Assembly (NCBI RefSeq): GCF_000829195.1
Contig: NZ_AP013294.1
Location: 1,809,001-1,873,000 of the forward strand
Direction: 5' to 3'
Origin: Bacillus sp. OxB-1
GTDB taxonomy: Bacteria > Bacillota > Bacilli > Bacillales_A > Planococcaceae
Length of the DNA: 64,000 nt
Made by a program: the position numbers and the translations under genes. This document shows positions 8,214 through 37,353 of this stretch, piece by piece (the first letter of the stretch is position 1; each line of letters starts with the position of its first letter). The notes beneath the pieces are model-generated. The model had not been told where the DNA came from. It saw only the letters and a list, made by a program, of their open reading frames with translations, and ran no database searches.

Positions 8214-8229
8214 TTGGTTGGATTATACG

Positions 8230-8645
8230 TTCCGCGCTCATAACTTTGCGGGGACGCTCATAATTCTCGTTCTGCGCTCATAACTTTGCGGGACCGCTCA
8301 TAGTTCTCGTTCTGCGCTCATAACTTCGCGGGACCGCTCATAGTTCTCGTTCCGCGCTCATAACTTCGCGGGACCGCTCATAATTCCTGTTCCGCGCTCA
8401 TAACTCCGCAGGACCGCTCATAGTTCTCGTTCTGCGCTCATAACTTCGCGGGACCGCTCATAGTTCTCGTTCCGCGCTCATAACTTTGCGGGGACGCTCA
8501 TAATTCTCGTTCTGCGCTCATAACTTTGCGGGACCGCTCATAATTCCTGTTCCGCGCTCATAACTTCGCGGGACCGCTCATAATTCTCGTTTCGCGCTCA
8601 TAACTTCGCGGGGACGCTCATAGTTTTCGTTCTGCGCCCATAACC
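8230..8645. repeat. Intergenic array A: CGCTCATA word every 20 bp
   Basis: Twenty copies of CGCTCATA plus one degenerate copy follow each other with exactly 20 bp from word to word and no slip over about 410 bp. Two spacer types alternate (roughly ACTTYGCGGGA and RTTCTCGTTYYG), giving a 40-bp higher-order unit. The array fills the gap between the hpf terminator and the secA promoter. There is no start codon, ribosome binding site or coding signal. Spacers are similar rather than unique, so this is not a CRISPR. Confidence 0.95.
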
Positions 8646-18208: not shown

Positions 18209-19030
18209 TGAGGTTTCCAACGATGTACTGTAGTTGTCCAACGAATCGCAGGAGATGTCCAACCAACGAGCGGGGGTGTCCAACGAACGGGAGAAGATGT
18301 CCAACGAAGGGCGAGGTTTCCAACGATGTACTGTAGTTGTCCAACGAATCGCAGGAGATGTCCAACCAACGAGCGGGGGTGTCCAACGAACGGGAGAAGA
18401 TGTCCAACGAAGGGCGAGGTTTCCAACGATGTACTGTAGTTGTCCAACGAATCGCAGGAGATGTCCAACCAACGAGCGGGGGTGTCCAACGAACGGGAGA
18501 AGATGTCCAACGAAGGGCGAGGTTTCCAACGATGTACTGTAGTTGTCCAACGAATCGCAGGAGATGTCCAACCAACGAGCGGGGGTGTCCAACGAACGGG
18601 AGAAGATGTCCAACGAAGGGCGAGGTTTCCAACGATGTACTGTAGTTGTCCAACGAATCGCAGGAGATGTCCAACCAACGAGCGGGGGTGTCCAACGAAC
18701 GGGAGAAGATGTCCAACGAAGGGCGAGGTTTCCAACGATGTACTGTAGTTGTCCAACGAATCGCAGGAGATGTCCAACCAACGAGCGGGGGTGTCCAACG
18801 AACGGGAGAAGATGTCCAACGAAGGGCGAGGTTTCCAACGATGTACTGTAGTTGTCCAACGAATCGCAGGAGATGTCCAACCAACGAGCGGGGGTGTCCA
18901 ACGAAGGGGGGAAGCTGTCCAACGAACGGCGAGGTATCCAACGATGTACTGCAGTTGTCCAACGAATCGCGGGAGATGTCCAACCAACGAGCGGAGTTGT
19001 CCAACGAACGGGGGAGGCTGTCCAACCATT
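18209..19030. repeat. Intergenic array C: 103-bp tandem repeat built of TGTCCAACGAA words
   Basis: A 103-bp unit is repeated about eight times. The first six or so copies are essentially identical, and the last two, near 18900-19030, differ at several sites. Each unit contains four 21-bp steps starting TGTCCAACGAA or TGTCCAACCAA and one 19-bp step starting TCCAACGATGT. Since 103 is not a multiple of three, the open frames through it shift phase with each copy. It lies between the M23 terminator and the next operon. The remaining bases to 19214 hold nothing recognisable. Confidence 0.95.
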
Positions 19031-23812: not shown

Positions 23813-24574
23813 TCATTCAATACTTTCCGGCAAAATTTGACCGCCGTCGACGACCAGGGTCTGTCCGGTTACGAAGCCTGCTTCTTTGGAAGCGAAGAAT
23901 GCTGCTGCATATCCGATATCTTCTACGGTCCCCAATCGTTTGAATGGAATGGCTGCGGCCATCGCTTTTAAATAGTCCTCCCCCATACCATCCAGCCCTT
24001 CAGTGAAAATGTTTCCGGGGGAGACAGCATTGATCGTAATATTGTCCTTTGCGAGTTCAAGTGCCGCCGTCCGCATGAAGCCGAGTTGTGCCGCCTTGCT
24101 TGCTCCGTAATGCGACCAACCGGCGTATCCCGTAATCGGACCGGTAATGGAAGAAGTGACGATGAAACGGCCGTGTTCCGCCTTCTTCACGTATGGGAGG
24201 AATGCTTTCACTGTGAAAAAGGTGCCTTTCGAATTCACATTTTGCACGTAGTCCCATTGCTCCTCTGTCATCTCTTCCATGGTGGCTGATGGAAAAATTC
24301 CTGCGTTCGCGCAAACGATATCCACACTACCGAAATCCTCGGCGATGGCCTTTGCGGCTGTTTCCAGCGTCTCCAGTGAGGTGACATTGGATTTGTAAGC
24401 CCTTACATTATTATGATCGCCTTGCAACTCCTCCGCGACTTTTGATGCCTCGTCCTCATGTCGTGCAAGAATCGCCACATTGGCCCCCAATTGGGAGAAG
24501 ACCTTCGCAATCCCTTTTCCGATCCCCTTGCTGCCACCTGTCACCACTACCGTTTTCCCTTCAAATTGTCTCAT
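23813..24574 (-). CDS. SDR dehydrogenase, candidate aminoacetone/aminopropanol enzyme
   Basis: A classical short-chain dehydrogenase of 253 residues. The cofactor motif TGGSKGIG is at 12-19 and NAG at about 90-92. The catalytic residues are Ser141/142, Tyr156 and Lys160 (HYGASK). The ARHEDE segment after the second strand suggests NADP(H) preference (inference). It is transcribed divergently from the DeoR regulator of the microcompartment operon. In the actinobacterial RMM compartment a dehydrogenase of this class interconverts aminoacetone and 1-amino-2-propanol, and that role fits here. A general 3-oxoacyl reductase is the alternative. Confidence 0.88.
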   Translation of the reverse strand: MRQFEGKTVVVTGGSKGIGKGIAKVFSQLGANVAILARHEDEASKVAEELQGDHNNVRAYKSNVTSLETLETAAKAIAEDFGSVDIVCANAGIFPSATMEEMTEEQWDYVQNVNSKGTFFTVKAFLPYVKKAEHGRFIVTSSITGPITGYAGWSHYGASKAAQLGFMRTAALELAKDNITINAVSPGNIFTEGLDGMGEDYLKAMAAAIPFKRLGTVEDIGYAAAFFASKEAGFVTGQTLVVDGGQILPESIE

Positions 24575-24675
24575 CTGTTCAACACTCCTCCTACTATTGC
24601 GTTTTGTGTAATAAAGAAAGCGCAGGATTCATTTAATAAACCATATAAAGTTGTTGGATCTTGTTGATTTATTAC

Positions 24676-24704
24676 ATGCTATCACTCTTGTTATGTGGAG
24701 TCAA
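24676..24704 (-). promoter_or_regulatory. Promoter of the SDR gene
   Basis: On the minus strand TTGACT (24704-24699), 17 bases, TAGCAT (24681-24676). It faces away from the DeoR-operon promoter, which has the same -35 sequence. Confidence 0.6.
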
Positions 24705-24858
24705 CATTTATATTAGACTATTCAGATTAATTGAATTTAATGATAGACAATCAAAAAAAGCAAGAATTGCGTTGGATGCTAATAGAATCCCTGACAGCCT
24801 TCAAGATATTGTTTCCACTTCGTAATTTCTATTGATTTCAAATAGTTCGACATTTTTG

Positions 24859-24887
24859 TTGACTTCAAAAAATATAGATGCTATCAT
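24859..24887 (+). promoter_or_regulatory. Promoter of the microcompartment operon
   Basis: TTGACT (24859-24864), 17 bases, TATCAT (24882-24887), about 130 bases upstream of the DeoR start, leaving a long leader. The 445-bp divergent gap holds this promoter, the SDR promoter and a cre-like site; no gene is seen in it. Confidence 0.65.
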
Positions 24888-24988
24888 GTACCAAATCCAC
24901 ATGATTCAATAAGATTACACAAGCGGCGGCAGTGCTAACGCTCGATTTACTAAGATGGCTCTATTACACTAGAAAATGAGAGGTGTAT

Positions 24989-25002
24989 AACAAGCGCTTA
25001 CA
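24989..25002 (+). promoter_or_regulatory. Candidate cre (CcpA) site before deoR
   Basis: AACAAGCGCTTACA matches the ideal palindrome TGTAAGCGCTTACA at 11 of 14 positions. Placed downstream of the promoter, it would act as a CcpA roadblock (inference). Confidence 0.45.
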
Positions 25003-25019
25003 AGATTGGGGATAGTGAA

Positions 25020-25796
25020 ATGTCTTTAACATTCGAGGACCGAAAGAAAGTGATCATAGAGACGCTGGAACGGGATGAAAAAGTGCAAGTCCGTGAATTG
25101 GCGAATGAGCTGGAAGTCTCCGGGGAAACGATCCGACGGGATTTGGATCGCTTGGAGAAGGAAGGCGTATTGAAAAAAGTGTATGGCGGTGCCGTCAAAG
25201 AGAAATCATCCCGAGAACTGCCGTTTGACTTGAAGACAGACATCATGACGAACGAGAAGCAGGCGATCTGCAAAGCGGCCGCCGATTTGGTCGAGGATGG
25301 CGACAGCATTATAATCGGGCATGGCACGACGCCGGTCGGGATTGTTCGGTATTTGGCGAATAAAAAGAACGTGACAGTCATCACGCCTTCCATACCGGTC
25401 CTCCTATCGACGATGGAATATTTCGAAGGGAAAGTGATCTTCATCGGTGGGGAATATGAGGCGAATCAGAAGTTCACAAGCGGTCCGCTTTCGGCATCCG
25501 TCCTTGGCCAATTGAAGGCCAATAAGTCATTCGTGGCGGCGGGCGGCTTATCCATCAATGACGGCATGTCGGATTACGATTTGCAGGGGGCCGGCAGTTC
25601 CAGGCAAATGATGAGCCGTGCGGATGAAGCGATCATTCTGGCAGATCACACGAAGTTCGGGAAAACGACCTTCGCGCACATCTGCTCGCTGACCGATATT
25701 TCGATGATCATCACCGACGAACATTGCTCGGAAGAATGGCAAAATGTCCTCAGAGACAACGAAATTGAATTGATCATCGCGAATGTAGAAAACTGA
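25020..25796 (+). CDS. DeoR-family regulator of the microcompartment operon
   Basis: A DeoR-type repressor of 258 residues. An N-terminal winged helix-turn-helix (about 18-45, ANELEVSGETIRRDLDRLE) is followed by a sugar-isomerase-like effector domain (about 75-250) with IIGHGTTP and SFVAAGGLSIND. Members usually sense phosphorylated intermediates, so 1-amino-2-propanol phosphate or a similar product of the neighbouring kinase is a reasonable effector (inference). It is the first gene of the operon, 58 bp before the PLP enzyme, and divergent from the SDR gene. Confidence 0.9.
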   Translation: MSLTFEDRKKVIIETLERDEKVQVRELANELEVSGETIRRDLDRLEKEGVLKKVYGGAVKEKSSRELPFDLKTDIMTNEKQAICKAAADLVEDGDSIIIGHGTTPVGIVRYLANKKNVTVITPSIPVLLSTMEYFEGKVIFIGGEYEANQKFTSGPLSASVLGQLKANKSFVAAGGLSINDGMSDYDLQGAGSSRQMMSRADEAIILADHTKFGKTTFAHICSLTDISMIITDEHCSEEWQNVLRDNEIELIIANVEN

Positions 25797-25854
25797 GATG
25801 TTTAGTGCCCGACACCAAAATCCAAATCAATAGAAAAAGGTGGAGATAGAGAAA

Positions 25855-27105
25855 ATGGTCCAGACTATTAGCAAATCATCAGTCCTTGATAAATCGATCC
25901 AATACTGGAATCCGGGCAAGACGGAGCAATGGCAACGTGACGGCGTCGACTTGGTCATCGGCAAACGGGAAGGGTACTACCTGTACGACATGGATGGCAA
26001 GCAATTGATGGATCTTCATTTGAACGGCGGGACATATAATCTAGGGCACCGCAATCAGGAAATCATTTCAACATTGAAGGAAGCGATGGACCAGTTCGAT
26101 ATCGGGAACCACCATTTCCCATCCATTGCGAGAGCCCAGTTGGCGGAAAAATTCAATCAGTGCACGCCGGATAATCTTAGGTATTCCATCTTTTCAAGCG
26201 GAGGCGGGGAAGCGATCGACGTGGCAATTAAAAGTGCACGCTACGCCACGAAGCGGAAAAAGGTCGTGTCCGTTAAATACGCCTACCACGGCCACACGGG
26301 GATTGCCGTCTCCTTAGGGAATGAGCGTTATTCCAAGCCGTTCCTCAGCGAAGGCAGTTCGGATGAAGTCGTCAATGTCGTCTTCAATGACTTGGATGCG
26401 ATGGAAAGAGCGTTGTCGAGAGAAGATGTAGCATGCGTCATCATCGAGACGATTCCGGCTACATACGGCTTCCCTCTCCCGGAACCGGGTTATTTGGAAG
26501 GCACGAAACGGCTTTGTGAGAAGTACGGTGCGCTCTATGTCGCGGACGAAGTGCAAACGGGACTGCTGCGTACGGGGAAGCTATGGGGTTTTGAACACCA
26601 TAATATTAAGCCCGACATCATGGTGACGGCGAAAGGTCTGAGCGGAGGAATTTACCCGATTGCAGCCACGGTCGTCAGCGAAAAGGTCGGACAATGGATG
26701 AATGAAGATGGCTTCGCCCACATCTCCACATTCGGCGGTTCTGAACTGGGCTGTGTCGTCGCCATGAAGGTGTTGGAAATCTCCCAGCGCCCTGAAGTGG
26801 TGGAAAATGTCGACTACGTCGCACGATATCTCCATGCAGGACTGGAGCGAATTAAAAGCCGGTACCCGGATCATTTCACAGGCATCCGGCAAAAAGGCGT
26901 CATCCTCGGATTGGAGTTCAGCAAACCGGATGGTGCAAAAGATGTCATGCGCGCCCTGTATGATAATGGCGTCTGGGCAATTTACTCGATGCTCGATACA
27001 AAGGTCCTTCAATTCAAACCGGGCATCCTGCTGGATCAGCGGTATTGCGATGATTTGTTGAATCTAGTGGAAACAAGTATGGCTCAAGCTGTCCGCAACA
27101 TGTAA
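25855..27105 (+). CDS. Class-III PLP enzyme, probable amino-alcohol-phosphate phospholyase
   Basis: A class-III aminotransferase-fold enzyme of 416 residues. ATG 25855 follows AAAGGTGGAG. The PLP lysine is Lys260 (MVTAKGLSGG) and the ring-nitrogen aspartate is Asp231 (VADEVQTG). Members next to an APH-type kinase can act as phospholyases, eliminating ammonia and phosphate from ethanolamine phosphate or 1-amino-2-propanol phosphate. The product here would be acetaldehyde or propionaldehyde. The next gene is such a kinase, and an acylating aldehyde dehydrogenase lies downstream, which supports phospholyase over transaminase. Substrate is inferred. Confidence 0.88.
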   Translation: MVQTISKSSVLDKSIQYWNPGKTEQWQRDGVDLVIGKREGYYLYDMDGKQLMDLHLNGGTYNLGHRNQEIISTLKEAMDQFDIGNHHFPSIARAQLAEKFNQCTPDNLRYSIFSSGGGEAIDVAIKSARYATKRKKVVSVKYAYHGHTGIAVSLGNERYSKPFLSEGSSDEVVNVVFNDLDAMERALSREDVACVIIETIPATYGFPLPEPGYLEGTKRLCEKYGALYVADEVQTGLLRTGKLWGFEHHNIKPDIMVTAKGLSGGIYPIAATVVSEKVGQWMNEDGFAHISTFGGSELGCVVAMKVLEISQRPEVVENVDYVARYLHAGLERIKSRYPDHFTGIRQKGVILGLEFSKPDGAKDVMRALYDNGVWAIYSMLDTKVLQFKPGILLDQRYCDDLLNLVETSMAQAVRNM

Positions 27106-27147
27106 AATTTAAAATAAAACCTAATGGGAGAGGGAGGAGTTCTGGGT

Positions 27148-28170
27148 ATGAGCAATGCTGGCGTCAACACATGGGAGCGACCTGTGGAGTTCTTCGATCT
27201 GGTTTCACAAAAGGCGAAGGGATTATACGATGGGCTCGATGATTTCACTGTCGAGCTCCTCGATTACTCGGAGAACGCAACGTATCTCGTGAAACACCCG
27301 GAGACGGGAGAAAAACGGATTATGCGCGTATGCCGTCCGAATTATCATACGAAAGAAGAGATCGAAAGCGAAGTGAAATGGCTGCAATCGATCGATGAGC
27401 ATACAGAGGTCATCGTGTCGAAACCCATTCCGGGGTCGGACGGGGAATATTTACAATCGGTAACATTGGATGGAAATAACCGGGAATACCATTGCGTCCT
27501 CTTCACTTTTTTGGAAGGGGAGACCCCTGATGTGGACAATGAAGAGAAGTTGATCAGGATTTTCAGGGAAATCGGAAAAACGACTGCCCATTTCCATAAA
27601 CACTCCATTGAAAATTGGGAGCAGTTCAATCAAATCAAGCGGCCGATTTGGGATTATGAAAATCTGATCGGCGAGAGGCCCAAATGGGGCAGATGGCAAG
27701 ATGGAAAAGGCATCACCCCGGAGCGGGAAGAGCTATTAACCCGTGTCTCTGATGTCATCAAGGAACGGCTGGAGAATTTCGGCAAGGGCCAAGAACGTTT
27801 CGGTTTGATCCACGCGGATTTACGTCATGCGAATCTCCTGATAGACAACGAGAAAAAGCTCGTCCAGGTCATCGATTTCGACGATAGCGGTTTCGGCTGG
27901 TATTTGTATGACCTCGCGGCGTCCCTGACGTTCATCGAACACCGTTCCTACGTGCCGAAGTTGGTCGAGGCATGGCTGGAAGGATATCAGACCGTCCGCA
28001 AGCTGTCCGAAGAAGAGTTGAATGAAATTCCGACATTCATCATGATGCGACGGATGCAACTCATCGCCTGGGTCGGCAGCCGCGACAACGAAACGGCAGC
28101 GGAACTCGGAGCTGAGTATTCGGAACAGACAGATCAATTGGCGAAGGACTACTTGGAGAAGTTCAAATAA
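27148..28170 (+). CDS. APH-fold kinase, probable amino-alcohol kinase
   Basis: An aminoglycoside-phosphotransferase-fold kinase of 340 residues. ATG 27148 lies eight bases after AGGGAGGAG; an ATG at 27124 overlaps that site and is less likely. The catalytic loop IHADLRHANLL gives Asp224 and Asn229, and the metal-binding DFDDSG gives Asp243. Related enzymes phosphorylate choline, ethanolamine or (S)-1-amino-2-propanol. Located directly after the phospholyase-like gene, it probably makes that enzyme's substrate. Confidence 0.88.
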   Translation: MSNAGVNTWERPVEFFDLVSQKAKGLYDGLDDFTVELLDYSENATYLVKHPETGEKRIMRVCRPNYHTKEEIESEVKWLQSIDEHTEVIVSKPIPGSDGEYLQSVTLDGNNREYHCVLFTFLEGETPDVDNEEKLIRIFREIGKTTAHFHKHSIENWEQFNQIKRPIWDYENLIGERPKWGRWQDGKGITPEREELLTRVSDVIKERLENFGKGQERFGLIHADLRHANLLIDNEKKLVQVIDFDDSGFGWYLYDLAASLTFIEHRSYVPKLVEAWLEGYQTVRKLSEEELNEIPTFIMMRRMQLIAWVGSRDNETAAELGAEYSEQTDQLAKDYLEKFK

Positions 28171-28173
28171 AAA

Positions 28174-28187
28174 AGTAAGCGCTACCA
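28174..28187 (+). promoter_or_regulatory. Candidate cre (CcpA) site before the permease
   Basis: AGTAAGCGCTACCA matches TGTAAGCGCTTACA at 11 of 14 positions, directly after the kinase stop. A second cre-like site in one operon suggests carbon catabolite control. Confidence 0.45.
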
Positions 28188-28265
28188 AAAGGGTGGCCAT
28201 TAGAGAAAGAGGGTTCTTGCAAACCGATGTAAGCACAATCAAATAAAACGTGAAGGAGCTTTGCC

Positions 28266-29669
28266 ATGAGTGGAAAACAGAACTTGGAACTGAAAAAGAC
28301 GCTTACGCCTTTTAACTTATGGGTCATCGGTGTAGGTATCGTAATATCCGGAAACTATTTTGGCTGGAATTTCGGTTTGAGCACTTCAGGCTATGTCGGC
28401 ATGCTGATTGCAGTCGGGGTCATGGCAGTTATGTATACATTCATGGCTTTCGGGATTTCTGAGCTGTCGACGGCCTTGCCGTTTGCGGGCGGTCCCTACT
28501 CATTCGCCAGGCGGGCGATGGGACCATTTGTCGGATTTATCACCGGGGTGGGCGTCGTCTTGCAATATGTCATTGCCGCGCCTGTGGTCGCTATCGGAAT
28601 CGGGGCATATATCAACTTCCTGTTTCCTACGGTGAATCCGATCGTCTCCGCAGCTGTCATGTATGTTTTCTTCATGGTCATCCACATCATCGGGGTGAAA
28701 GAATACGCCAGATTGGAAGCGATTCTTGTATTCATCGCCCTTGCATTATTAGTGCTTATGTATTTTGTCGGTTTGCCTCAAATCCGGGTGGAGAACCTGT
28801 TCGGCGGCGAAGGGGAAGCAATGATCCCGGGGGGCATCAAAGGGATTTGGGCGGCGTTGCCGTTTGCAATGTGGCTCTTCTTGGCCATTGAAATGCTGCC
28901 GATGCTTTCGGAAGAAACCCGGGATGCGAAAAAAGACATGCCAAAAGGGATTTTATCCGGGATGTTCACGCTCGTCATTTTGTCTGTCTTGACAACGACA
29001 GTGGCGATCGGCCTGAGCGGTTTCAACCAACTGAGCACGGCGGAAGATCCTTTGCCGGCAGCAATCGCCGCAGCGTATGGAAATACGTACTGGTTGGCAC
29101 AATTGCTTGCGTCCATCGGTCTTGTCGGGTTGATCGCCAGTTTCTCAGGGGTCATCCTCGCGTATTCCAGGCAAGTTTTCTCCTTATCACGCGCAGGGTA
29201 TTTGCCAGCCGTCTTTTCGAAGCTTCACCCGACTCGGCGGACTCCGTATATGGCAATCATCATCCCAGGTTTCATCGGGTTAATCTTGGTGGCAACTTTC
29301 AATCCGGATGATTTGATTTTGATAGCGACATTTGGCGCGTTGATTTCCTATATTTCAATGAACCTTTCTCTGATCATCCTGCGGAAGAAAGAACCGAATC
29401 TGGCACGTCCTTATAGGGCGCCGTTGTTCCCGTTCATGCCGATTGTTTCCATGGTCTTGGCGTGCATTGCCTTGTTTGCGAGCTTTTTTGCAAATCTGCC
29501 ATTCTTCTTCATCAGTATCACGGTGTTCGCGGTTGCCATCATCTATTACTTCGTCTGGGCCCGCCATAATATCAATACAGACGCCCCGGAAGAGCAATTT
29601 TCCAACGTCGGCGATCTTGAGATTCCAGTCGTGACGGGACCGGAGCTTGAAGAGGAAATCGTCCGATGA
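28266..29669 (+). CDS. APC-family amine permease, ethanolamine-permease-like
   Basis: An amino acid-polyamine-organocation permease of 467 residues with about twelve membrane helices. The helix-1 region GVGIVISGNYFGWNFGLS carries the substrate and ion loop typical of the ethanolamine-permease branch, and ALPFAGGPYSFARRAMG is conserved. It should import the small amino compound fed into the compartment pathway. ATG 28266 follows GAAGGAG. The stop overlaps the HAD gene (ATGA at 29666-29669). Confidence 0.88.
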   Translation: MSGKQNLELKKTLTPFNLWVIGVGIVISGNYFGWNFGLSTSGYVGMLIAVGVMAVMYTFMAFGISELSTALPFAGGPYSFARRAMGPFVGFITGVGVVLQYVIAAPVVAIGIGAYINFLFPTVNPIVSAAVMYVFFMVIHIIGVKEYARLEAILVFIALALLVLMYFVGLPQIRVENLFGGEGEAMIPGGIKGIWAALPFAMWLFLAIEMLPMLSEETRDAKKDMPKGILSGMFTLVILSVLTTTVAIGLSGFNQLSTAEDPLPAAIAAAYGNTYWLAQLLASIGLVGLIASFSGVILAYSRQVFSLSRAGYLPAVFSKLHPTRRTPYMAIIIPGFIGLILVATFNPDDLILIATFGALISYISMNLSLIILRKKEPNLARPYRAPLFPFMPIVSMVLACIALFASFFANLPFFFISITVFAVAIIYYFVWARHNINTDAPEEQFSNVGDLEIPVVTGPELEEEIVR

Positions 29670-30406
29670 ATTTCTGGGACCAAGATGTGGACACTGTCCT
29701 ATTTGATAAAGATGGCACATTGATCGATTTTCCTTCCATCTGGATTCCTTGGGTGGAGGATGCAGTCCGCTATTTGCGTGAAAGGATCGCCGGAATTGAT
29801 ATATCGCCTGCTGAAGCGAAGCAGGCGATCGGAGTGGACGTCACGGACGGGAGTGTCGATCCGAGAAGCCCGTTGGCGATTGCGTCCATCGAGGAGAGCA
29901 TCACCATCTTAGCATTCTTGCTTTATCAAAAGGGGCTGTCTTGGGACTCGGCAGTCATTTATGCAAGAGAGTGCATTGCCTATGCCGATAAAAGACAGAA
30001 TGATTCGACGAGTCTTCAGGCAGTGGAGCGAATATCCGATCTGCTCGGCGAGATGAAAAAAAGAGGGATGCGGCTCGGGGTGCTGACAGCTGATGACACG
30101 GACAAGGCGAGGAAACAGCTGGAGGAGCTTCAGTTGGGGAGTTATTTCGATTTCGTGATCGGCAGCGACTTGGTTGAGAGAGGAAAGCCTTTTCCGGACA
30201 TGGCGTACTTGGCCCGCGACCGCTATGGGGTTGATTTGCAAAGGGCTGCCATGATCGGGGACACGAATGCGGATATCCAATTGGGCAAACGGGCAGGTGT
30301 TAAGCTGACAATAGGCATTGCGAGTTACACGAAAGGAAAAACAGGACACCTACAAGATGCGGATTATAAGATCTGCAATTATGGCGAGCTGTTCGGAAAA
30401 GAGTAA
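29666..30406 (+). CDS. HAD-superfamily phosphatase in the microcompartment operon
   Basis: A HAD hydrolase of 246 residues of the phosphoglycolate-phosphatase type. The nucleophile motif is FDKDGTLIDF (Asp15 and Asp17), with motif II LTADD near 146, motif III lysine in RGKPFPD, and motif IV MIGDTNADIQLGKRAG. It overlaps the permease by four bases and precedes a small protein by 12 bp. A repair role, hydrolysing excess amino-alcohol phosphate or a damaged metabolite, is possible. No direct evidence identifies the substrate. Confidence 0.85.
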   Translation: MNFWDQDVDTVLFDKDGTLIDFPSIWIPWVEDAVRYLRERIAGIDISPAEAKQAIGVDVTDGSVDPRSPLAIASIEESITILAFLLYQKGLSWDSAVIYARECIAYADKRQNDSTSLQAVERISDLLGEMKKRGMRLGVLTADDTDKARKQLEELQLGSYFDFVIGSDLVERGKPFPDMAYLARDRYGVDLQRAAMIGDTNADIQLGKRAGVKLTIGIASYTKGKTGHLQDADYKICNYGELFGKE

Positions 30407-30418
30407 GGAGGCGACAAG

Positions 30419-30700
30419 ATGAATCCTGAATTAATAGAACAAATTACAAAGATGGTACTGGAAAGAATGGGAGGGGCCGGAACGGGCCCGATCACGTCAC
30501 TGACCGATGCGGAATTAAGACGATGGAGCGAAATTAGTGCTTCCATGCAACGGACGAATGTCGGCATGTCCGACAATGGAATGCGTCCTTTACATGCGCA
30601 AGAGATCGAGAGATGGAATGCCATTACGAAACGATTCAGCAATCTGGCTGCGCAATCCATGGAGCCGGCAGGGCAAGTGAAGTTCCATTCACACACTTAA
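30419..30700 (+). CDS. Small protein with encapsulation-peptide-like N-terminus
   Basis: A 93-residue protein I do not recognise. Residues 1-17 (MNPELIEQITKMVLERM) form an amphipathic helix of the kind that targets cargo into microcompartments, followed by a Gly-rich linker (GGAGTGP) as in cargo proteins. The body (about 27-93) is helical, with two similar segments, LTDAELRRWSEI and LHAQEIERWNAI, suggesting an internal duplication. Its position between the HAD gene and the aldehyde dehydrogenase supports a role inside the shell, perhaps as scaffold or adaptor (inference). GGAGG precedes ATG 30419. Confidence 0.8.
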   Translation: MNPELIEQITKMVLERMGGAGTGPITSLTDAELRRWSEISASMQRTNVGMSDNGMRPLHAQEIERWNAITKRFSNLAAQSMEPAGQVKFHSHT

Positions 30701-30724
30701 CACTCACAGGACAAGCGGGAAGGA

Positions 30725-32290
30725 GTGTTTCCTATCAACGCAGTAGAAGAGATGGAGAAAGCGGTTCAACAGGTCAAGGCGGCTCAGGAAAAATTCAGCA
30801 CATTCAACCAGAAGCAGATTGACGCAATCGTGAAGCATATCGCGGAAACGGCCTTCGCGCAAGCCGAGACACTCGCCAGGATGGCCGTCGAAGAAACGGG
30901 CATGGGCGTCGTGGAACATAAAAAAATTAAGAACGAGCTTGGCTCGATGGGCGTTTATGAATCGATCAAAGATGAGAAGACGGTAGGCGTCATCCATAAG
31001 GATCATCGTTTGAAAATGACGGAAGTGGCCTATCCATTCGGAGTCATTGCAGCCATTTGCCCGACGACGAATCCGACGTCGACCGCTATTTTCAAGACGT
31101 TGATCGCCTTGAAGGCGCAAAACGGCATCGTCGTCAGTCCGCATCCGACAGCGAAACGGTGCACGGTCGAAGCCTTGAAAATCTGTGCGCAGGCGGCAGT
31201 GGAGGCAGGGGCGCCGGATGGATTGATCGGCTGGATCACGGATCCGTCGATGGAAGCGACGACACGACTGATGCAACACCCGGATGTCGAGTTGATACTT
31301 GCGACGGGGGGCAGCGGACTGGTCAAGGCGGCGTACAGTTCCGGGAAGCCTGCCTACGGAGTGGGGCCGGGCAATGGCCCGGTCTACATCGAGAAATCAG
31401 CGAATGTGAAAAAAGCGGCACAGCTGATTGTGGATAGCAAGACGTTTGATAACGGGACGCTCTGTTCGACGGAGCAATCGATTGTCGTCCATAGGAATAT
31501 TAAGGAAATGACGATGCGGGAACTGCGCAACAACGGAGCCTATTTCCTGAATGAAGAAGAAAAGATGAAATTAGGAAATGTCATCGCCCCGACGGAAGGA
31601 CAATTGAACGCCAAAATTGTCGGTCGGTCGGCGGAGACAATCGCTGAAATGGCGGGTATTGAAGTTCCGGTCGGGACCCGGGTTTTGATTGCCGAAGAAG
31701 ATCGGATCGGGAAAGATGTACCGTTCTCATTGGAAAAATTGGCTCCGATCTTTCCGCTGTACACGGCGGACAGCGATGAGGAAGCACTTCGTATTTGCGA
31801 AGGGCTGTTGAACTTCATTGGACGCGGCCATAGCTGCTCCATCCATACGACGGATGAAGAAGCGGCACAACGGTACGGGCTCGCAATGCCGGTTTCCCGG
31901 GTGATGGTGAACACGATGGCTTCGATCGGGGCGGCGGGCGCGACGACGGGACTCATGCCTTCGCTGACGCTGGGATGCGGTTCGTACGGAGGGAATATTT
32001 CGTCGGATAATATTACAGCGCGTCATTTATTCAACACAAAGAGGATTGCGTCAGGGATTAAAGAAGTGACTCTACCGAAGCCATCGCCGCGCCGGTATGA
32101 GCCGGTCGAAAAGCTGGTACAGCAAGGAGTTGAACCGGATATCGAGGCGATTATCGATCAGGTGATGCGGGAAGTTCAAGGGAACTGTAAGTCGATGGAC
32201 TTGGAAGATGTTTCGACCACAGTCCGGCAAATCGTACAACGACAACAAATGAGCAAGACAATAAGGAGGAATTCAAATGGCAGAGATTAA
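30725..32290 (+). CDS. CoA-acylating aldehyde dehydrogenase, PduP/EutE-like
   Basis: An aldehyde dehydrogenase of about 521 residues that would convert propionaldehyde or acetaldehyde to the acyl-CoA with NAD. The nucleophile is Cys247 ([12 protein letters not shown]), and the cofactor loop is [12 protein letters not shown]. The C-terminal extension (about 455-521) carries two amphipathic helices, [16 protein letters not shown] and [16 protein letters not shown], typical of encapsulation peptides. GTG 30725 overlaps its apparent ribosome binding site; ATG 30752 or a rarer start codon nearby is possible. The 3' end overlaps the first shell gene by 14 bp. Confidence 0.9.
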
Positions 32291-32564
32291 CGGCGCACTC
32301 GGAATGATTGAAACAAAAGGATTGGTGGCAGCGTTGGAAGCGGCAGATGCGATGGTCAAGGCGGCGAATGTGCAAATTATCGGGAAAACGCATGTCGGGG
32401 GTGGCATCGTGACGGTCCTCGTGACGGGGGACGTCGGCGCAGTCAAAGCGGCTACGGACTCGGGAAGCGCCGCAGCGCAGCGAGTAGGTGAATTATTATC
32501 TGTCCACGTCATCCCGCGCCCGCATAACGAACTGATCGGCATTCTGCCACGGGCGAATGGATAA
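32277..32564 (+). CDS. BMC-H hexameric shell protein (first copy)
   Basis: A single BMC-domain protein of 95 residues, of the PduA/EutM class, that tiles the shell as hexamers. The start region [19 protein letters not shown] is canonical. The pore loop is [11 protein letters not shown], a small-residue open pore suited to small polar metabolites. [18 protein letters not shown] follows. GGAGG inside the end of the dehydrogenase gene precedes ATG 32277. It is nearly identical in sequence to the copy at 33179. Confidence 0.95.
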
Positions 32565-32596
32565 CAATCAGATCGGTTGAAGGGCGGCGATGGAAG

Positions 32597-32878
32597 ATGC
32601 TTGTTGGTAAAGTGATTGAAAATATATGGGCGACTCGTAAAGAGGATGGACTCACGGGTTTGACATTCCTCGTCATCCAGCCGGTGGGAACGGAACGGGA
32701 AGGTGTGCCGTTGCAGCCTCCTTTGGTAGCCGTCGATCGAATCGGAGCGGGGATCGGGGACCGGGTCATCGTGACACAAGGGTCCCCTGCGACTTTTATC
32801 GACCAGACTAGGAAAATGCCGGTTGACGCTCTGGTGATCGGCATCGTCGATTCGGTGCCGGAACGGGATCGGCCATGA
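32597..32878 (+). CDS. BMC-P pentameric vertex protein (EutN/CcmL)
   Basis: A 93-residue protein of the EutN/CcmL family, which caps the twelve vertices of the shell as pentamers. The opening MLVGKVIENIWATRK and the core VAVDRIGAGIGDRVIVTQGS are diagnostic, as is DALVIGIVD near the end. The stop overlaps the next gene (ATGA at 32875-32878). It is the only pentamer gene in the locus. Confidence 0.94.
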   Translation: MLVGKVIENIWATRKEDGLTGLTFLVIQPVGTEREGVPLQPPLVAVDRIGAGIGDRVIVTQGSPATFIDQTRKMPVDALVIGIVDSVPERDRP

Positions 32879-33150
32879 CGAAGGCGATCGGCATGATCGA
32901 GACGTTCGGTCTGGCCTATTCACTTGTCGTCGCCGATGCGATGCTGAAAACGGCGGATATCCAAGTCGTCACCCGTGAAGATGTCAGCGAAGTCTATTAC
33001 ACGATCGTGATAGAAGGGGAAGTTAGTGCAGTCCAGATGGCGATCGACCGCGGCGTCGAAATTGCGTTACAAGGGAATGCGCTGATGTCCTATGAGGTCA
33101 TCGCAAGACCGATGATTGATGTGAGGCGCATCATCCCGATGAAAGGTTGA
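32875..33150 (+). CDS. BMC-H-type shell protein with divergent pore loop
   Basis: A 91-residue single BMC-domain protein. The opening [21 protein letters not shown] is clearly of this family. The pore segment reads [18 protein letters not shown] instead of the Gly-rich loop of its two neighbours, so the pore is probably narrower, charged or closed. The C-terminal part ([19 protein letters not shown]) also differs. It may form hexamers with a distinct gate or a minor facet. Translationally coupled to the pentamer gene. Confidence 0.9.
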
Positions 33151-33178
33151 TTCGAAGAAATGGAATGGAGGAACGAGG

Positions 33179-33460
33179 ATGGCGAGCGAAGCATTAGGAA
33201 TGATTGAAACAAAAGGATTGGTGGCGGCGATTGAAGCGGCGGATGCGATGGTCAAGGCAGCCAACGTGCAAGTCGTCGGGAAGACACATGTCGGGGGAGG
33301 CATCGTGACGATCATGGTTCGCGGGGATGTCGGGGCGGTCAAGGCTGCGACTGAATCGGGAGCCGCGGCGGCACAACGGGTCGGGGAATTGCTGTCAGTG
33401 CATGTCATCCCGCGTCCACATAACGAGTTGGAAGCCATTTTGCCAGGCTCTATGAATTGA
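33179..33460 (+). CDS. BMC-H hexameric shell protein (second copy)
   Basis: A 93-residue canonical BMC-H protein with the same [11 protein letters not shown] start, the [11 protein letters not shown] pore loop, and [20 protein letters not shown] end as the copy at 32277. The two differ at a modest number of positions, mostly at the ends, and look like a recent duplication. They may mix in one facet. ATG 33179 follows GGAGG. Confidence 0.95.
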
Positions 33461-33481
33461 TCGGGAATGGGGGCATCTTCT

Positions 33482-33844
33482 ATGAACGAGATGACGATCC
33501 AAGCAATTGTGGAGGACTTTGTGACAGAACTGACGCAAACCCCTCCGTCACGAAATGAAATCCCGTTTTCCGGCTTCGTGCTAAGTGGACATGGGGATGA
33601 TATGCTGCCGCAAATTCGTTACTCCTGCGCGGGTGGTATCCCTTTAGAGAAACTGACTCCCCGAAAACTGTCATGGCAAATTCCCGAACTGTCATGGCTC
33701 GCAAGAACTGTCATGGCTCGCAAGAACTGTCATGGCAAATCGTCCAACTGTCATGGCCCCGCGCGAAACTGTCATGGCGCGCGAGAACTGTCATGGCAAA
33801 CCGCCCAACTGCAAGGACAAATCCTCGAACTGTCATGGCGATAG
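33482..33844 (+). CDS. Small protein with encapsulation-like helix, tail inside repeat array
   Basis: The frame starts at ATG 33482 (ATG 33467 is possible). Residues 1-17 ([17 protein letters not shown]) form an amphipathic helix that resembles cargo-targeting peptides of microcompartment enzymes. Residues 18-60 contain an unrecognised segment ([20 protein letters not shown]). From about residue 62 the frame is simply translation of the AACTGTCATGGC array, with repeated CHG and LSW units. It looks like a cargo gene cut short by repeat expansion, or a short gene that lost its stop. Whether the tail is made is unknown. Confidence 0.5.
33666..33841. repeat. Intergenic array D: AACTGTCATGGC word every 19-21 bp
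   Basis: The word starts at 33666, 33687, 33706, 33725, 33746, 33767, 33786, 33807 (degenerate) and 33828. Steps are 21, 19, 19, 21, 21, 19, 21 and 21 bp. Spacers are short and of several types (such as AAATCGTCC or TCGCAAG). It lies at the 3' end of the shell operon and just before the shared terminator. Confidence 0.92.
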
Positions 33845-36012: not shown

Positions 36013-36144
36013 GGAAACCTTCAGCTTCGCCGCCCCCTTCATACGACCCATTTCCAATCAAATCCATTATAACATCAATTCCCAGTCGGGACCTTCTTCG
36101 GGCAAAGCACATATACTACTCTATCGATTGGAGGAGGTATGTAC

Positions 36145-37353
36145 ATGTTTTATTATATGTATCAAGGGCCGACGTTCGGTCCGCCCCATTATTATGTTCA
36201 GAACGATCAGGAGAGGAGACGGCAGCAGTCGGCTCAACAGGTGTTGCAGCGAATACAGACGCAGCATCCAGAATTGTATACGGAGTTGGAAGCGTATGGG
36301 ATGAATCGTGCAATCGCGGATTATGTATTCCTCCTGGTCATCCGCTTTACACTCAGCCAAGCCGGGACGGATCAGACTGCCACTCAGGTCTATAATCAGT
36401 TCCAGTCGCAGTTTCCTTGGCTGCCGCTCTTTTATGCACAGTTCCGGATTCCGCCGAACGTCATGAACCGAACTTTGATGCAAGTGATCCGGCTGACGTT
36501 GGCAGAGGCCGAGGATGGGCGCCCGCAACCTCAGCCGGGACGGGGCTGGATTGGCTGGGAGGACTTGGGCGGTGTCCTTACTTCGGGGCCGGGCGTATCT
36601 TCTTGGCAGCCAAACCGACTTGATGTCTTTGTCCGGGGTTCCAATGAGGCAATGTACCATAAATGGTGGGACGGCCGTCAGTGGAGCGACTGGGAGAATC
36701 TTGGTGGCGTACTTACTTCCGCCCCGGCTGCCGTTTCTTGGGGCCCGAACCGGATCGATGTCTTTGTCCGGGGGACGGACAACGCGTTGTATCACAAATG
36801 GTGGGATGGCCAGCGATGGAACGATTGGGAGAGTCTGGGCGGTGTACTATCCAGCGCGCCGACTGTCTCCTCGCAGCGGCCGAATCAGCTTGATGTCTTT
36901 GTCAGAGGAACAGACAACGCTCTTTACAAAAAGACATGGAACGGCTCGCGCTGGCTCGACTGGGAGAACCTCGGCGGTACATTGACCTCCGCGCCTGCTG
37001 CCGTCTCTTGGGGGCCGAATCGCGTGGACGTATTTGCAAGGGGACAGAACCAGGAATTGATCCATAAATGGTGGGATGGCTCTTCGTGGAGCGGTTGGGA
37101 AAGTCTCGGCGGCACGCTCACCGAGGCTCCTGCTGTCGCCTCCAAACGGCCGAACCGCCTACAAGTCTTCACCAGAGGGTCGAATCAAAACCTCTATCTC
37201 AGAGAATGGAACGGTTCTCGCTGGCTGAACTGGGAAAACCTTGGAGGAACCCTGACCTCCGCACCCGCTGCTGTTTCATGGGGCCCGAATCGGACAGATG
37301 TCTTTGCGAGGGGACGGGATCAGAGCCTTATCCATTTGTATCAGAATGAATAA
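36145..37353 (+). CDS. PLL-like beta-propeller lectin with unknown N-terminal domain
   Basis: A 402-residue protein. ATG 36145 follows GGAGGAGGT. There is no signal peptide. Residues 1-130 form an unrecognised, Gln-rich helical region. Residues about 135-400 hold five near-identical repeats of about 46 residues (pattern W.DWENLGGVLTSAPAAV, then SWGPNRIDVFVRGTDNALYH, then KWWDG). This is the blade pattern of PLL-type bacterial lectins (Photorhabdus lectin fold), which bind fucose or O-methylated sugars. A strong terminator follows. A spore-surface or released lectin is possible, but nothing in the sequence proves location. Confidence 0.82.
   Translation: MFYYMYQGPTFGPPHYYVQNDQERRRQQSAQQVLQRIQTQHPELYTELEAYGMNRAIADYVFLLVIRFTLSQAGTDQTATQVYNQFQSQFPWLPLFYAQFRIPPNVMNRTLMQVIRLTLAEAEDGRPQPQPGRGWIGWEDLGGVLTSGPGVSSWQPNRLDVFVRGSNEAMYHKWWDGRQWSDWENLGGVLTSAPAAVSWGPNRIDVFVRGTDNALYHKWWDGQRWNDWESLGGVLSSAPTVSSQRPNQLDVFVRGTDNALYKKTWNGSRWLDWENLGGTLTSAPAAVSWGPNRVDVFARGQNQELIHKWWDGSSWSGWESLGGTLTEAPAVASKRPNRLQVFTRGSNQNLYLREWNGSRWLNWENLGGTLTSAPAAVSWGPNRTDVFARGRDQSLIHLYQNE

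Follow-up and report, generated by a model that had tools for sequence, protein, structure and literature searches.

Bacterial microcompartments (BMCs) are usually viewed as one locus encoding one organelle for one substrate. For the RMM1 compartment of Mycobacterium smegmatis and Rhodococcus, also known as AAUM or Aut, the accessible descriptions list a short-chain dehydrogenase/reductase (SDR), an APH-fold kinase, a class-III pyridoxal-phosphate (PLP) enzyme, a permease, an acylating aldehyde dehydrogenase (AldDH), a BMC-H hexamer and a BMC-P vertex protein. The same kinds of gene make up the locus analyzed here, an amino-alcohol (Aut) cluster of Bacillus sp. OxB-1, which lies in a stretch of 64,000 nucleotides (positions 1809001-1873000 of a single-contig 3.59-Mb genome) that we call the window. 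We favor the reading, with a probability of roughly 0.55, that this cluster is an amino-alcohol module mounted on a metabolosome chassis of the ethanolamine-utilization (EUT) type, sometimes shared with ethanolamine breakdown.

Unlike RMM1 as the accessible texts describe it, the window has an EutM-like hexamer, an EutE-type AldDH, no BMC-T in the locus and a DeoR rather than a GntR regulator; intact relatives add a PduL-type phosphotransacylase (PTAC) and a malate-dehydrogenase-like enzyme (MDH), and the locus has an extra HAD hydrolase and a candidate adaptor of 93 amino acids (aa), the comparison with RMM1 covering the genes other than this last open reading frame (ORF). With the Firmicute EUT2 compartment the locus shares a type I AldDH with a C-terminal encapsulation peptide and the EutM-like hexamer, to which intact relatives add PduL and the MDH-like enzyme that also occurs in the eut loci studied here; unlike EUT2, whose signature is EutBC with B12, it has the kinase and PLP enzyme.

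The cluster type itself is in print. Ravcheev 2019 (PMC6620236) describes Firmicute Aut compartments, including those of Brevibacillus agri and Lysinibacillus fusiformis, with a permease and an AldDH that branch apart from those of Actinobacteria; the part of that paper accessible to us draws another route, through an aminotransferase to lactaldehyde, and there reports neither eut sharing nor an adaptor. In Sutter 2021 (PMC8217296), "EUT modules" join other compartments, with HO/SPU compartments having them as satellite loci, and PDU/EUT fusions appear in Axen 2014 (PMC4207490) and PMC8156839; as the available text presents them, these likewise set a second group of signature enzymes on an existing compartment. 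Unlike them, the added set here is Aut, and dependence can be reciprocal, as in Neobacillus. Axen 2014 also covers RMM1/2 and loci without PTAC or alcohol dehydrogenase (AlcDH), and further compartment literature is found in PMC8007038 and PMC8156839. Our literature search, which did not extend to supplements, brought up no account of an adaptor, of merged Aut-Eut loci or of sharing between the two systems; these loci may be listed as EUT or RMM subtypes in the supplements to Sutter 2021, Axen 2014 and Ravcheev 2019. The Aut compartment of Bacillales is thus already known, and what is new here is a deletion scar, the EUT-type AldDH and hexamer, loci that are merged, incomplete or interlocking, and an adaptor candidate.

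At slightly less than even odds, we extend the reading from the window to other Bacillales: breakdown of 1-amino-2-propanol and of ethanolamine could share one compartment, with Aut as a plug-in that docks by a detached EutC-like tail carrying tryptophan-motif repeats, and with Neobacillus loci that depend on each other for shell vertex, AldDH and PTAC. In several relatives the eut genes encode shell or enzyme parts that the aut set of the same genome lacks, a pattern suggesting that two nutrient pathways may plug into a common organelle. If true, single deletions in harmless soil bacteria could put substrate sharing to the test at interlocking loci, neither of which encodes a full organelle, and the 93-aa adaptor, as a carrier of tag-less enzymes into a shell, would be a useful engineering part.

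Gene content and kinship of the aut locus

The features of the locus are as follows.

23813..24574, minus strand: SDR transcribed divergently from the operon, a probable 1-amino-2-propanol dehydrogenase (aminoacetone reductase); best solved relative 6ci9/6ci8
25020..25796, plus strand: DeoR/GlpR-family regulator (PF00455, PF08220)
25840..27105, plus strand: class-III PLP enzyme, probable amino-alcohol-phosphate phospho-lyase (PF00202, kinase adjacency)
27124..28170, plus strand: APH-fold kinase, probable 1-amino-2-propanol kinase; best solved relative 6ef6
28266..29669, plus strand: APC permease, ethanolamine/amino-alcohol type (TIGR00908 over cut-off)
29666..30406, plus strand: HAD hydrolase (PF13419)
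30419..30700, plus strand: 93-aa adaptor candidate with encapsulation-peptide-like helix, two L[ST]xxE[LI]xxW-type motifs and VKF tail (alignment, profile)
30725..32290, plus strand: acylating AldDH, EutE/TIGR02518 type, with C-terminal encapsulation-peptide-like helix
32277..32564, plus strand: BMC-H shell hexamer (BMC-H1), EutM-like, basal type (family and solved-relative searches)
32597..32878, plus strand: BMC-P shell vertex protein, EutN/CcmL (PF03319)
32875..33150, plus strand: BMC-H, divergent (PF00936)
33179..33460, plus strand: BMC-H, basal type (PF00936)
33482..33572, plus strand: remnant of a PduL-type PTAC gene, first ~30 codons (alignment to the sister-genome locus L021)
33569..33660, plus strand: remnant of a malate/lactate-dehydrogenase-like gene, about codons 173-203 (alignment to the sister genome)
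33662..33840, plus strand: imperfect ~20/61-bp tandem repeats, AACTGTCATGGC

Every gene named in the original prediction is present, at or within a few bases of where it had been placed and, apart from the AldDH subtype, in the family given. The permease scores 461.6 bits against TIGR00908 (cut-off 381.75), the EutN/CcmL protein is over the PF03319 cut-off with NCBIfam matches below theirs, and the three BMC-domain proteins are all BMC-H. The genes of the cluster are real and mostly under purifying selection. The cluster is not a chance assembly, as shown by the same gene order in the sister genome (G216) and by the proteins of further genomes of the genus. In G216, nine of the twelve proteins are 95-100% identical to those of the window and the remaining three 83-92%; in two further genomes of the genus identity is 76-88% for the SDR, the PLP enzyme, the kinase, the permease and the AldDH, 59% for the HAD hydrolase and 33-36% for the 93-aa ORF. 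Between the window and G216, the ratio of nonsynonymous to synonymous substitution rates (dN/dS) is 0.00-0.17 in ten of the twelve genes; BMC-P and the 93-aa ORF (93 codons each) stand higher, at 0.41. These values span the whole time since the split, not just that since the deletion described below. The HAD hydrolase is present in 14 of the 29 related loci read.

The amino-alcohol enzymes are related to those of RMM. Among solved structures the SDR is closest to 6ci9/6ci8 (302 bits, 143/249 residues identical, 57.4%), which we take to be the M. smegmatis 1-amino-2-propanol dehydrogenase (its chains are labelled reductase); 3rih and 3pk0, whose names say no more than SDR, come close behind with 286 and 277 bits. 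The kinase is closest to 6ef6 (243 bits, 125/313 identical, 39.9%; runner-up 66 bits), presumably the M. smegmatis (S)-1-amino-2-propanol kinase. By sequence, the two genes appear to encode an aminopropanol dehydrogenase of the SDR family and an amino-2-propanol kinase. The PLP enzyme belongs to the class-III family (PF00202), and we assign it a probable phospho-lyase role because of its kinase neighbor; of the 27 related loci read with both genes, 25 have them next to each other. A PLP enzyme and a phosphotransferase also stand side by side on a Pseudomonas sp. MPC6 plasmid, whose 14 listed features include no BMC gene (such tables are incomplete), and on a Phyllobacterium plasmid the PLP enzyme lies beside an alkaline-phosphatase-family protein. 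The scan of our genome collection and the plasmids yielded no Actinobacterial RMM loci for direct comparison, so that RMM was compared through solved structures and papers alone.

The chassis has another kinship. A PduP-like AldDH had been predicted, which we reject since family and relatives searches place the enzyme with the EutE kind: it matches TIGR02518 with 584 bits, short of the 620 set as curated cut-off, and ends in a C-terminal helix resembling an encapsulation peptide. We take TIGR02518 to correspond to IPR013357. The latter is given in the accessible part of Sutter 2021 (PMC8217296) as type I AldDH, dominated by EUT2 and carrying a C-terminal encapsulation peptide. Compared with solved single-domain hexamers, BMC-H1 is closest to 4axj, an "ethanolamine carboxysome structural protein" (136 bits, versus 107 bits for the RMM protein 5l38), and across 86 aa it has 83% identity with the hexamer of the eut locus. 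Matches of BMC-P to solved relatives are too weak to decide its type. There is no tandem BMC at the locus, as an RMM-type shell with BMC-T(dp) would have, and the sole one found in the genome is EutL of the eut locus; nor is EutBC found at the aut locus, EutB occurring in the genome only at 1328 kb and 425 kb. Because the SDR and kinase are kin to RMM enzymes and the AldDH and BMC-H1 to EUT proteins, we describe the locus as an RMM-like front end on an EUT-like chassis.

The earlier suggestion of a Firmicute RMM with the RMM enzyme set consequently survives in part: searches against solved structures bear it out for the SDR and kinase, and by family only for the PLP enzyme, but the AldDH and main hexamer are EUT-type and the cluster type had already been published. 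In a tree of 38 AldDHs (400-700 aa, at least 45% identity to our reference sequences), 23 Aut and 10 Eut rows are interleaved instead of separating into two clades (three changes each), with ten open forks and some long branches weakening the deeper order. The Aut AldDHs of Paenibacillus sp. BSR1-1 and B. marasmi group with seven Eut rows (support 100/99).

The 3' deletion and aut-eut interlock in Bacillales

The terminal ORF of the operon (33467-33844) is a deletion scar, not a small protein. The prediction of small cargo-like proteins accordingly divides: the 93-aa ORF represents a genuine, conserved family, and the other is this scar. Beyond the third hexamer, the G216 operon continues with a PduL-type PTAC (PF06130), a 207-aa protein (weak TIGR02536 match), a long BMC-H and an MDH-like protein. 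At 96% identity to G216, window DNA continues into the PTAC gene as far as 33572, and 33569-33660 matches the middle of the G216 dehydrogenase gene at 89% (82/92). The two flanking matches share the 4-bp TCCG, marking a deletion junction with microhomology, and 2,136 bp that lie between them in G216 are absent. In the same alignment the end of the dehydrogenase gene finds no match in the window either, and the imperfect repeats start at ~33662, past the junction. Related AACTGTCATGGC-like units also occur in the sister genome's L021 stretch. In place of a complete core, with PTAC and an NAD-recycling dehydrogenase in the locus, the window holds fragments of both; the other three aut loci of the genus (G216, G229, P32b) keep both genes.

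The same genome has an eut locus (C1:1320-1338 kb) with EutH, EutS, EutP, EutA, EutB, EutC, EutL, an EutE-type AldDH, BMC-H, PTAC, BMC-P, a long BMC-H and an MDH-like gene. Its PTAC, long BMC-H and MDH-like gene are of the same kinds as those in the sister's intact aut locus; no counterpart of the 207-aa protein was seen in this eut locus. A further PTAC lies at 423 kb, and a second EutBC pair stands beside a PTAC at 415-435 kb of C1 (L108), with no BMC-domain match near the pair, bringing the EutB genes of this genome to two. Having lost its PTAC and dehydrogenase, the window operon therefore most likely makes use of the genome's own eut locus. The eut locus is followed by a different repetitive ORF (L020 15437-15661).

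We then surveyed aut loci more widely. The kinase, searched at E <= 1e-40 in 261 genomes of the order, was found in 15, and in 13 of these it lies within an aut compartment locus; the other two are G063 and G064. A scan of the genome collection gave 33 named loci, mainly from Bacillaceae and relatives, along with Verrucomicrobial metagenome-assembled genomes (MAGs) and one Pseudodonghicola. Those without an aut compartment locus were left out (L036, L050, L051, L053, L055, L060-L062 and L064, and likewise genomes G063 and G064), including L064, from which a 247-aa BMC-domain ORF lies some kilobases off. L052 is kinase-only, and its genome (G281) was counted through the merged locus L117; six named loci duplicating order genomes were counted once. 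One genome (G040) was judged by match positions, and the other 30 were read as loci. After this de-duplication, 31 Bacillales genomes have an aut compartment locus. In the Verrucomicrobial loci L060, L061 and L064 the SDR and PLP enzyme are adjacent, L060 and L064 have the kinase, and no BMC-P ORF lies in the stretch. In one Lysinibacillus genome (G036, L031) the aut permease is divided between two ORFs. A third type of BMC locus, seen in L105 (G262) and L106 (G216), has HAD-like, AldDH, BMC-H, PTAC, BMC-P and DeoR-like regulator genes, and no signature enzyme was recognized in it.

Aut and Eut genes form one cluster in four of the 31 genomes: Alkalihalobacterium elongatum (G269), Bacillus sp. 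V5-8f (G274), a Bacillus MAG (G277) and Calidifontibacillus (G281). Among the remaining 27, five have no EutB match, and all five of their aut loci are complete (AldDH, PTAC and BMC-P). The other 22 are EutB-positive with separate loci; 13 of these aut loci are complete and nine lack at least one of the three kinds, as follows.

Window strain: without PTAC
Lysinibacillus antri: without AldDH and BMC-P
Bacillus piscicola and Compostibacillus humi: without AldDH, PTAC and BMC-P
Neobacillus rhizophilus, N. citreus and Neobacillus sp. Marseille-Q6967: without BMC-P
Bacillus sp. FJAT-29814: without PTAC and BMC-P
N. vireti: without AldDH and BMC-P

Eight of these nine genomes encode the absent kinds elsewhere, at another BMC locus. 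N. vireti, the ninth, does so for BMC-P but has no EutE-like AldDH at E <= 1e-100 apart from AdhE-size frames. The smallest Aut set, that of Compostibacillus, comprises three enzymes, a regulator, two hexamers and the small adaptor. The N. vireti aut locus (L043) has short AldDH and MDH remnants and no BMC-P, perhaps a sign of decay under way.

The strongest evidence for a shared compartment, which is evidence by gene content, comes from N. rhizophilus (G263) and N. citreus (G264), whose aut and eut loci interlock. Genome searches found in each a single BMC-P, on the eut contig, and a single PTAC, on the aut contig, where the single EutE-type AldDH also lies (AdhE-size frames aside). Both eut loci read EutL, BMC-H, hypothetical, BMC-P, EutS, EutP, EutA, EutB, EutC; both aut loci read SDR, DeoR, PLP enzyme, kinase, adaptor ORF, AldDH, BMC-H, PTAC, BMC-H, MDH. 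Neither locus alone encodes the shell vertex plus the core enzymes. Between the two species dN/dS is about 0.25 or less for genes at both loci, and some genes have probably been exchanged, because dS differs much between them (0.11-1.29).

The 93-aa adaptor candidate

Besides the kinase, the 93-aa ORF is the most constant part of the system; it is kept despite loss of the AldDH in L033, L041, L043 and L063. A profile built from 20 members of the family and run over 40 genomes finds such an ORF at the aut or merged locus of all 31 aut-compartment genomes and of none of the nine others; any match at all occurs in 32 of the 40, the match of the extra genome being an EutC. Beyond the 31 ORFs (one with a second, partial match), the profile hits 14 places at E <= 0.01, 13 of them EutC N-termini and the last a 74-aa ORF that lies in the eut locus of Compostibacillus. 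In six EutC proteins tested (four of them among the 13 places, as is that of G275, and that of L095 without a profile match), the PF05985 match begins only at residue 57-106, so the tail precedes the domain.

The members share a helix resembling MDxELVEKITRLVLxKLEE, and this helix is common to EutC, as in the window ORF (LIEQITKMVLERM) and the EutC of the same genome (LIEKITKMVVEKL). They also share the motif L[ST]xxE[LI]xxW, in two copies in 17 rows and three in three rows, giving 43 hits against a shuffle mean of 0.085 (maximum 2) and only three in the 381,454 aa of the loci's other proteins. VKF[HFWY] stands near the end of 11 of the 20 ORFs (strict pattern) and in eight of 23 EutC tails (shuffled mean 0.43, maximum 4); the 23 are those whose tail end was located, which leaves aside the EutCs of the window genome, G216 and G268. 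AlphaFold2 predicts three separate helices (3-19, 30-50, 60-79) with a pTM of 0.25 and a mean pLDDT of 69, so there is no confident overall fold. By inspection, an encapsulation peptide resembling the one on the AldDH is absent from the SDR, the PLP enzyme and the kinase. We propose to read the 93-aa ORF as an EutC-like targeting tail standing on its own, which may bring in the SDR, PLP enzyme or kinase. The carboxysome scaffolds CsoS2 and CcmN combine repeats with a shell-docking element and have little fixed fold; the 93-aa protein, at just 93 aa, resembles them in this architecture.

Several points weigh against this role. The W-motif and VKF-tail patterns were written after the alignment had been seen, the former slightly wider than the motif printed, and none of the four scored EutC tails from merged loci has VKF, with 15 of the 23 lacking it overall. 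Hydrophobic moment fails to separate encapsulation peptides from other helices: the PLP-enzyme termini reach 0.49 and 0.59 and the first helix of the 93-aa ORF 0.46, around a 95th percentile of 0.52. "Tag-less" is for this reason a judgment by eye, and the encapsulation-helix assignment of the 93-aa ORF is carried by the alignment and profile search.

Proposed pathway and competing readings

We infer substrates and reaction order as follows. The APC permease would import 1-amino-2-propanol, or aminoacetone would enter and be reduced by the SDR; the kinase would phosphorylate 1-amino-2-propanol, and the PLP enzyme would eliminate ammonia and phosphate to give propionaldehyde, which the EutE-type dehydrogenase would convert to propionyl-CoA within the shell. 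In intact relatives the PduL PTAC would recycle CoA and the MDH-like enzyme NAD. The 93-aa protein may carry at least one of the SDR, PLP enzyme and kinase inside through an EutC-tail shell dock. Several other Bacillales aut loci seem to rely on eut loci as the window's does, and from these apparent dependencies we infer physical mixing in one shell. Threonine dehydrogenase, considered as an aminoacetone source, was rejected, with seven matches in the genome and none over the cut-off; import of the substrate is therefore probably likelier than internal aminoacetone. A methylcitrate route for propionyl-CoA was likewise rejected, there being no PrpD-family match in the window genome.

A number of findings count against this module reading. 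Sharing is not general, because among the 22 genomes that have EutB and separate loci, 13 retain the whole aut chassis, and the association of EutB with an incomplete aut locus (9/22 versus 0/5) is not significant (Fisher P = 0.14). The missing AldDH of N. vireti is without a close replacement, which looks like decay. The best solved relatives of the PLP enzyme are aminotransferases, and substrate specificity rests on identities of 57% (SDR) and 40% (kinase).

It is unlikely, in our estimate, that the window's AldDH, three BMC-H and BMC-P form an Aut compartment of their own, with acyl-CoA used in the cytosol and NAD balanced by the SDR. A minimal shell set of BMC-H and BMC-P is present, ten of the twelve genes have low dN/dS, methylmalonyl-CoA-mutase-family matches occur in the genome, five EutB-negative genomes have complete aut loci, and the accessible part of Axen 2014 (PMC4207490) describes RMM1 without PTAC or AlcDH. 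This independence is hard to square with the three other aut loci of the genus, which retain the PTAC and MDH-like genes, and with the eight other EutB-positive genomes lacking aut parts, seven of which encode the absent kinds at another BMC locus. We consider it equally improbable that the operon is a decaying relic, no longer a working pathway since the deletion. The 3'-end deletion and repeats, the dN/dS of 0.41 for the two 93-codon genes and the truncated AldDH and MDH remnants of N. vireti would fit such a relic, but all twelve remaining ORFs are open and the other ten genes evolve at dN/dS 0.00-0.17, though over an interval that perhaps mostly predates the deletion.

A shade less probable again is the proposed B12-independent ethanolamine compartment, in which the kinase and PLP enzyme would turn ethanolamine into acetaldehyde through phosphoethanolamine with the SDR as an accessory: the permease is over the ethanolamine-permease cut-off, the AldDH is EutE-type, loci L049 and L117 lack the SDR, and EutB occurs in 12 of the 13 aut-compartment genomes of the order versus 72 of 261 overall (hypergeometric 1e-6, inflated by kinship), which fits shared substrates too, but ethanolamine comes only second best because an SDR, 57% identical in the window to the solved aminopropanol dehydrogenase, is found at 28 of the 30 loci read and a B12-type eut locus, with two EutB genes in all, is already in the genome.

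Control by CcpA, also suggested as a possibility, is not supported. The window has six near-cre matches against 4.4 expected from shuffles, none of them upstream of the operon, where the best fit before DeoR is 11/14; no shared cre site is seen in relatives at that position, although one of them (L039) has a 13/14 palindrome.

Elsewhere in the window, a tandem array at 18210-19026 (103-bp unit, 7.9 copies, 98% match) gives rise to a ladder of spurious ORFs, and another minisatellite (40 bp x 10) lies at 8228-8644. Downstream of the operon, 36139-37353 encodes a 404-aa protein with repeated DVFVRGTDNALYHKWWDG-like units, which we take to resemble a propeller lectin.

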